From a virus: 23,429 nucleotides of DNA. Location of the stretch: IMG/VR virus record IMGVR_UViG_3300030119_000214, positions 1 through 23,429 of that record, one strand, 5' to 3'. The number at the start of each line of letters is the position of its first letter. Within the stretch, counting starts at the first letter, position 1. Position numbers and translations under genes: made by a program. Under the pieces are notes generated by a model, which had not been told where the DNA came from, made no database searches, and was given only the letters and a program-made list of their open reading frames with translations. Shown in pieces: positions 7,347-8,670 of this stretch.

Positions 7347-7777
7347 TGAGATTTCACGAACTTTTAGAAGGCGCATCAATGATGCCTTACTTCAAAGACC
7401 CTAAAGACAAAACACAAAAGACTTGGACTTTCCCAGATGCTTGGCAAAAAGACGAGCCATTAGATACTCCATACATGAGCAACGCAAGTATGAGACAATT
7501 TCTAGATGCACTAGGTTACAATCCAGACTTTGAAGACAATCAACCACCTGTACCGGCAAAAGAATTTATTGCTAGGACTACACAATGGCTTCAAAAGAAT
7601 ATTGACAAGCCTTCACCATACGAACCAACCCAAGTTGATAAAAATCCAGGTGGACCCACAATGTACACTGGTGGCAGAGAAGAAGGGCATATGAATAAAA
7701 CAATCAAATATCACAACGAACTAGCCAGAAAAATTATTGCCAAATATCCAGAAGTAACACATTTTGGTTTTAATTAA
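7346..7777 (+). CDS. late protein with capsid-targeting-like N-terminus, unknown
   Basis: A 143-residue protein starting MRFHELLEGA, one of the clearest matches here to the T4 prohead-protease rule (Leu-Leu-Glu, then Gly-Ala). The rest is Pro/Asp/Lys rich with Trp residues (Thr-Trp-Thr-Phe-Pro-Asp-Ala-Trp near 27-34) and a Tyr-Thr-Gly-Gly-Arg-Glu-Glu-Gly-His segment near 107-115. I do not recognise a known enzyme family. Start and stop both overlap neighbours by one base (TAATG). Confidence 0.75.
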   Translation: MRFHELLEGASMMPYFKDPKDKTQKTWTFPDAWQKDEPLDTPYMSNASMRQFLDALGYNPDFEDNQPPVPAKEFIARTTQWLQKNIDKPSPYEPTQVDKNPGGPTMYTGGREEGHMNKTIKYHNELARKIIAKYPEVTHFGFN

Positions 7778-8670
7778 TGCGACTTTCCGAAATAAGCAGA
7801 ACCATTGACATCTACAACAAAAGGTTGTATAATGAAAATATGGAATCGATGCCGACAGTTTATTTGGATATGGACGGAGTCCTTGCAGATTTTTTTGGTG
7901 GAATAGAAAAATTGTATGGAGTCCAACACTGGAAAGAATTAACTTCTGATAAAACAAAAGATTTAAAGACTGAAGTGATTAAAAAAATTACGGGTACAAA
8001 TTTCTTCGAAACTTTGCCAAAATTTAATTCGGCAGATTCTTTAGTGAAATTAGTGCAGGACTTTACGGGTGGAGTGTATTCTATTAACACATCTCCGTTA
8101 AGAGGTGATAATAAAAATTCAGCATACTACAAAAAAGTGTGGATAGGAAAACATCTTCCAAAGCCACAAGAAATAATTGTGACAGGACGTAAAGAATCCT
8201 ATGCAATGAATAAAAATAACAAGCCAAATATTCTAGTTGATGATAGACCAATCAATATACAAAGATGGACAGGAAGAGGTGGATACGGTATATTGTATCA
8301 AGCAAATAGAGATTCCATAGATAAAGTAAAAGCAGGATTGGAAACATACAAACAGAAATACATGACAGCCAAAGACGAAGCCGCAGGTGTAGGCATAGTG
8401 ACAAAACAAAATGCCACAAAAGATGTGCCAGTAGGCGGACAGTACATGAATGTTAAGAAATTAGGTTTAGGCAAAGGCAAACCAAAAAAAATGTTTGATA
8501 ACTTTGCAGATGGTAAAGGGCCAGGCAAACCTGGTGACAGTCAACGACATGGAATACCTAAAGGTGCAACAATGGCACAATTACAAAAAGCCGCAAAAGC
8601 ACCTGGCAGAAAAGGGCAGTTGGCACGTTGGCAGATTAATATGCGAAGAGGCAGAAAGAAGAAAAAGTAA
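7777..8670 (+). CDS. HAD-family 5'(3')-deoxyribonucleotidase-like protein, two possible starts
   Basis: The long form has 297 residues. HAD motif I is Asp31-Met-Asp33-Gly-Val with Asp31 as the expected nucleophile. Asn-Thr-Ser-Pro near 108 is motif II, and Val-Asp-Asp-Arg near 151 is motif IV. This is the layout of deoxyribonucleotidases (NT5C family), which dephosphorylate dNMPs. Residues from about 200 are a Gly/Lys/Arg-rich extension ending Arg-Arg-Gly-Arg-Lys-Lys-Lys-Lys, a module recurrent in marine phage proteins. The 5' region holds a perfect sigma70 promoter whose +1 is the A of an in-frame ATG at 7840 (Met22). I infer an early form starting at Met22, directly before the domain, and a late form starting MRLSEISR at 7777. 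The start at 7777 shares a TAATG overlap with the previous gene. Confidence 0.82.
   Translation: MRLSEISRTIDIYNKRLYNENMESMPTVYLDMDGVLADFFGGIEKLYGVQHWKELTSDKTKDLKTEVIKKITGTNFFETLPKFNSADSLVKLVQDFTGGVYSINTSPLRGDNKNSAYYKKVWIGKHLPKPQEIIVTGRKESYAMNKNNKPNILVDDRPINIQRWTGRGGYGILYQANRDSIDKVKAGLETYKQKYMTAKDEAAGVGIVTKQNATKDVPVGGQYMNVKKLGLGKGKPKKMFDNFADGKGPGKPGDSQRHGIPKGATMAQLQKAAKAPGRKGQLARWQINMRRGRKKKK
7805..7833 (+). promoter_or_regulatory. consensus sigma70 promoter inside the nucleotidase gene, leaderless
   Basis: TTGACA (7805-7810), 17 bp, TATAAT (7828-7833): a 12 of 12 match. Predicted +1 is 7840, exactly the A of an in-frame ATG that begins 8 codons before the HAD catalytic motif. The transcript would be leaderless and encode an enzyme lacking the first 21 residues. 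Confidence 0.8.

Follow-up and report, generated by a model that had tools for sequence, protein, structure and literature searches.

A promoter and in-frame start codon nested in a tagged phage nucleotidase gene: a probable case of one gene, two proteins

The nucleotidase gene and its surroundings

The stretch of DNA analysed (the window, 23,429 nt) belongs to a group of uncultured marine phages. Its nucleotidase gene contains two nested ORFs ending at the same position (Table 1). The long ORF scored 28.6 bits with the PF06941 profile (NT5C, 5'(3')-deoxyribonucleotidase; curated cut-off 24.8) and matched phrog_2643 (1.3e-24). The mitochondrial 5' nucleotidase 4mum was retrieved using a profile built from the nucleotidase homologues. 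Residues D31, D33, D155 and D156, from HAD motif I (DMDGV) and the DD pair of motif IV, were invariant in the alignment. The product is predicted to be NT5C-type by family, and the role in nucleotide recycling proposed in the earlier note would follow from the family. The structure model was of low confidence as a whole (mean pLDDT 60) and was used solely for the poor confidence of residues 1-22 (pLDDT <50). Of the phages searched, none was a close isolate; full-length DNA polymerase matches reached 49% identity at best.

Table 1. Positions of the features in the window
Feature	Position	Strand	Remarks
dnaJ promoter and start	980..1018	+	TTGACT-18-TATAAT; dnaJ ATG (1016) 7 nt after -10; candidate parallel leaderless start; conserved in L286-L289
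Cytidylyltransferase-like gene	5837..6418	+	Tag MRIVEVVEA; phrog_3041 (2.5e-48); homologue fused to nucleotidase in L201-L208
Upstream gene	7346..7777	+	Tag-like N-terminus MRFHELLEG; TAATG overlap with 7777
Long ORF, 297 aa	7777..8670	+	Tag, NT5C-type HAD nucleotidase, basic C-terminal module
21-codon N-terminal extension	7777..7839	+	MRLSEISRTIDIYNKRLYNEN; front part tag-like, rear part holds promoter
-35 hexamer	7805..7810	+	TTGACA
Palindrome	7814..7828	+	ACAAC-AAAAG-GTTGT; between -35 and -10, overlapping -10; candidate operator; 16/18 homologues
-10 hexamer	7828..7833	+	TATAAT; exact in 16/18 homologues, the remaining two having TACAAT and TATACT
Short ORF, 276 aa	7840..8670	+	Predicted leaderless early product; Met and 6-nt gap from -10 invariant
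HAD motif I	7867..7881	+	DMDGV; invariant in homologue alignment
Basic C-terminal module	8485..8667	+	Common to many other phage proteins
T4-type late promoter motif	8861..8868	+	TATAAATA; after nucleotidase gene
Gene 22832 promoter and start	22798..22834	+	TTGACA-17-TATAAT; ATG (22832) 6 nt after -10; candidate parallel leaderless start

The gene was described earlier as coupled by TAATG to a late structural gene. The TAA/ATG overlap is present at 7775-7779; the identity of the preceding gene as late structural is not supported by any family match. The C-terminal module (GDSQRHGIPKGATMAQLQKAAKAPGRKGQLARWQINMRRGRKK, about 60 aa) occurs with up to 96% identity in otherwise different phages (L017-L071), and modules of this type end many proteins, several of which have tag-like N-termini. 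Elsewhere in the window (18855-20330) lies a gene for a large protein that we take to resemble the tRNA-guanine transglycosylase / DpdA type, with a possible role in DNA base modification.

Promoter, inner ATG and palindrome

The perfect promoter claimed for the first 21 codons is there, as a 12/12 match to TTGACA-17-TATAAT (7805-7833) occupying codons 10-19 of the 297-codon gene. The -10 is followed by GAAAAT and then by ATG 7840-7842, which is in frame with ATG 7777 (63 nt, 21 codons) and is not preceded by a Shine-Dalgarno sequence. Placement of this ATG just ahead of the HAD motif was also borne out, as DMDGV begins 9 codons past Met22. Its placement exactly on +1 agrees with the distance of 7 nt from the -10, the exact +1 being a prediction. 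Met25 was considered as a start and rejected, as it is missing from most homologues.

TTGACN-17-TATAAT was found 5 times on the forward strand of the window, and 0 times on the reverse strand and in the reversed control. Relatives (1.155 Mb) gave 191 forward, 0 reverse and 2 control matches, frequently located ahead of genes of early type, the sliding clamp among them. The match at 7805 is the sole one between 2.2 and 12.3 kb of the window, the region of tagged genes. Given the peptide and local codon use, the chance of a 12/12 promoter was 5%, and that of promoter plus palindrome 0.016%. Before the clamp gene of the window (18074-18123) the predicted +1 coincides with ATGAGGAGAAAATAATG, a mini-ORF with a 5'-terminal AUG; this mini-ORF contains the Shine-Dalgarno sequence and overlaps the clamp start. 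Over motif I of a second small HAD gene (13228-13269) lies TCGACA-17-TATAAT, with TTGACA as the -35 in relatives; spacer third bases vary there, so that this match may just reflect the protein motif.

An ATG lay 5-6 nt after the -10 in 23 of 103 distinct promoters, with about 1.4 expected from neighbouring positions; the computed P for this excess is too optimistic because the 103 include related sequences. Besides the nucleotidase, the promoters with this gap belong mainly to the gene-22832 family. The dnaJ and 22832 genes of the window look leaderless as well, and the dnaJ geometry, with its 18-nt spacer, is retained in a 70%-identical relative.

The palindrome ACAAC-N5-GTTGT was retained in L200, L204 and L206 despite a changed -35. 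It was nearly limited to these nucleotidase genes in 2.18 Mb, so a regulator binding it would be gene-specific; a site for a genome-wide regulator was rejected, there being almost no further copies. An RNA hairpin was also rejected. Because folding did not stand out from shuffles (z -1.04), an operator was preferred: half-sites 10 bp apart that overlap the -10 fit a dimeric repressor, and the palindrome is probably its operator. Another palindrome, TACCG-N7-CGGTA, lies at the same offset in the promoter before the DNA polymerase gene (14742-14770).

Homologues, carriers and the N-terminal tag

Eighteen homologues of the same architecture were gathered through protein or synteny searches that ignored the promoter, and the codon test was done on this set and not on homologues selected by pattern. 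The check set beforehand was that related phages should have the 21-residue extension together with the internal promoter; both are present in all homologues of the closest clade. Met22 and its 6-nt gap to the -10 were invariant (18/18), while the residues preceding Met22 and the length after it vary, and 13 of the 18 have an 11-12/12 promoter. An ORF with a conserved consensus promoter inside it and an in-frame ATG at the predicted 5' end (18/18) is the layout expected of a VirF21-type isoform. The major third-base frequency was 0.89 over the ten linker codons; in the enzyme body of the same set mean uniformity was 0.62, with 0.77 for the best ten-column stretch. Codons of the form xTT, xAC, AGG/AAG/CAG, TTG, and AAT or ACT were kept in all 18, including the less used TTG for Leu (18% of window use) and AGG where Arg occurs (7%). 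The linker is conserved as peptide too, which counts against dual expression. When all of IMG/VR was searched for the combination of promoter, palindrome and ATG, 20 stretches were returned, all of them this gene and each with the 21-codon extension. Dual expression would not be universal, because L204 and L206-L208 have a weak -35 (TTGCAx) and because L209 has the tag and no promoter. Early- and late-type promoters both precede a tagged gene in L006, L218, L225 and L228, where an early tagged form thus seems tolerated.

The eight homologues L201-L208 are cytidylyltransferase-nucleotidase fusions of 388-393 aa with the nucleotidase as C-terminal half. Their N-terminal half shares 40-45% identity with window gene 5837. 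The block of -10, ATG and linker peptide sits at residue 212-215 in the fusions and is usually the best promoter within the fusion ORF. In other homologues the promoter-ATG-nucleotidase block comes after a 21-residue tag resembling those of neighbouring late genes; in L166 and L104 the nucleotidase behind the block shares only 39-40% identity with the window's. Since the block stands behind different carriers and before divergent nucleotidases, it seems to move as a unit. We infer that the window arrangement arose by splitting of such a fusion. A cultured phage with the fused gene was looked for, and no record covered 80% of the fusion; the five cyanophage T4-GC190 partners examined had neither a HAD domain nor the internal promoter cassette. 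The nucleotidase of Pelagibacter phage HTVC008M is N-terminally extended and has no internal Met or promoter. Untagged nucleotidases of other phages are often behind sigma-70-type promoters.

Proteins starting M-K/R-x-x-E/D/N-hydrophobic are encoded by 8 genes within 5837-11370 and by 0 elsewhere in the window (P=2e-6, for a pattern defined after the genes had been inspected). A short N-terminal motif is thus present on several non-shell proteins, as for T4-type capsid targeting. The same block in relatives carries tags such as MRASEFLNEA and MKIYEITEG, other phages have MKSSEFLNEA, and cyanophage relatives of gene 5837 begin MKKFSAFLNEA, which is near-T4-like: IPII and IPIII begin MKTYQEFIAEA in the T4 record, and the first ten residues of IPIII suffice for targeting (PMC9026906). 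T4-GC190, the homologue of the fusion partner in cyanophages, was detected by mass spectrometry in purified S-SM1 virions (PMC3037559); the record of the S-SM1 homologue is annotated GC 190.

The extension had been likened to the targeting peptides of the cluster. It shares the first half of the motif; the prohead-protease cleavage motif (hydrophobic-x-E, residue ~9-10), present in other tags of the block (e.g. MRFHELLE, MKVNEVVE), is absent from the nucleotidase tag MRLSEISRTID and its homologues, so head packaging of the nucleotidase is no more than plausible. Literature searches on nucleotidase tagging and cyanophage tags gave nothing directly relevant. Several small proteins of the tagged block (window 6421-6630, and L284) contain KKLAGI/RKLAGI, which also ends the scaffold protein at the gp22 position (L282) and is a possible second prohead-association signal. 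At the T4 gp67 position, the gene that follows the portal (L282 3819-4061, reverse complement; L283 3841-4089) has a tag-like start, MKLMEFF or MILRELF.

Interpretation and known systems

The favoured reading is that one gene probably gives two forms of the enzyme: a free one, made early from a leaderless message, and a late one that is tagged or fused and probably packaged in the head. Late in infection, a read-through message of the tagged block would be translated from ATG 7777 into a tagged nucleotidase, whose tag, being of the block's type, would probably serve prohead inclusion. Early, host sigma-70-type RNA polymerase would initiate at the internal promoter; the message would start on or beside ATG 7840 and be translated without a leader into the free enzyme. 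A dimeric repressor probably acts at the palindrome over spacer and -10. Promoter, ATG and enzyme would together make up a cassette, recombining as a unit behind a cytidylyltransferase or a short tag. The core of the earlier note, one gene with two proteins, is well supported by comparison because the homologue check, the invariant Met22, the fusions, the recurrence of leaderless starts, the clustering of tags and the virion homologue agree with it; less well supported are the late structural gene and the full likeness to targeting peptides.

Two proteins could also be made with the extension only keeping translational coupling, both forms being soluble and differing in timing. The nucleotidase tag lacks the cleavage motif and tagged homologues with early promoters exist, as this would have it; we nevertheless find it unlikely, given that the tag pattern is limited to one gene block, that the tag resembles T4 capsid-targeting sequences, and that the alternative carrier has a homologue known as a virion protein.

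Two other explanations were weighed. The promoter might be real and serve downstream genes, as internal promoters commonly do, with no short nucleotidase being made; ATG 7840 lacks a Shine-Dalgarno sequence. Yet the Met at +7 is invariant, the genes 3' of the nucleotidase vary between homologues, a later gene of the window has its own TATAAATA, and leaderless starts recur at dnaJ and 22832, all of which makes this very doubtful. We give hardly any weight to coincidence, in which conservation of the linker IDxYNKRLYNEDM as protein would create a promoter-like sequence. The linker, unlike the enzyme body, is frozen at synonymous sites, and the less used AGG and TTG are retained, against which stands the 5% chance of the 12/12 match given the peptide. 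The HAD gene at 13228, whose motif I may dictate a promoter-like match, could be cited for coincidence as well, but its spacer third bases vary.

If the favoured two-protein reading is true, one coding sequence would serve two times and two places, as early cytoplasmic enzyme and late head cargo. Gene callers that choose the longest ORF would overlook the early form. The conserved leaderless starts would give a testable start-site rule for this phage group, and the tag pattern would point to many more candidate head-delivered proteins. Evenly poised is the broader proposal that a portable cassette of operator-promoter, leaderless ATG and enzyme nests an early gene in late virion-cargo genes and swaps carriers, the enzyme being made early and loaded into the next heads. 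No description of a portable cassette within virion-cargo genes was found in the literature searched.

We rate the conserved cassette inside virion-cargo genes as the unusual part, the internal-promoter mechanism being already known in bacteria. The tested precedent is VirF30/VirF21 of Shigella, in which a gene-internal promoter gives a leaderless mRNA and an N-terminally shorter protein in the same frame (PMC5101355). The nucleotidase resembles VirF21 in its internal promoter and leaderless short form, here predicted from sequence. VirF is a bacterial regulator on which VirF21 feeds back, whereas the phage protein is an enzyme; a further difference is that the predicted short form of the phage enzyme retains its complete catalytic domain, the long form having in addition a tag or a fused virion-type domain. 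The tag is like the capsid-targeting sequences of T4 IPI, IPII and IPIII in being a short peptide of the form M-K/R ... E-hydrophobic at the N-terminus of non-shell proteins (PMC9026906), and MKSSEFLNEA and MKKFSAFLNEA of relatives nearly match T4 MKTYQEFIAEA. Compared with them, the nucleotidase tag has one residue less and no hydrophobic-x-E cleavage site, and its packaging is a prediction. Window gene 5837 and the N-terminal half of the fusions are both homologues of the cyanophage T4-GC190 cytidylyltransferase. The 5'-3' deoxyribonucleotidase (phrog_2643) of Methylophilales phage Melnitz is of the same catalytic family, with 49% core identity; unlike the window gene, it is untagged and lies behind an ordinary upstream sigma-70-type promoter.
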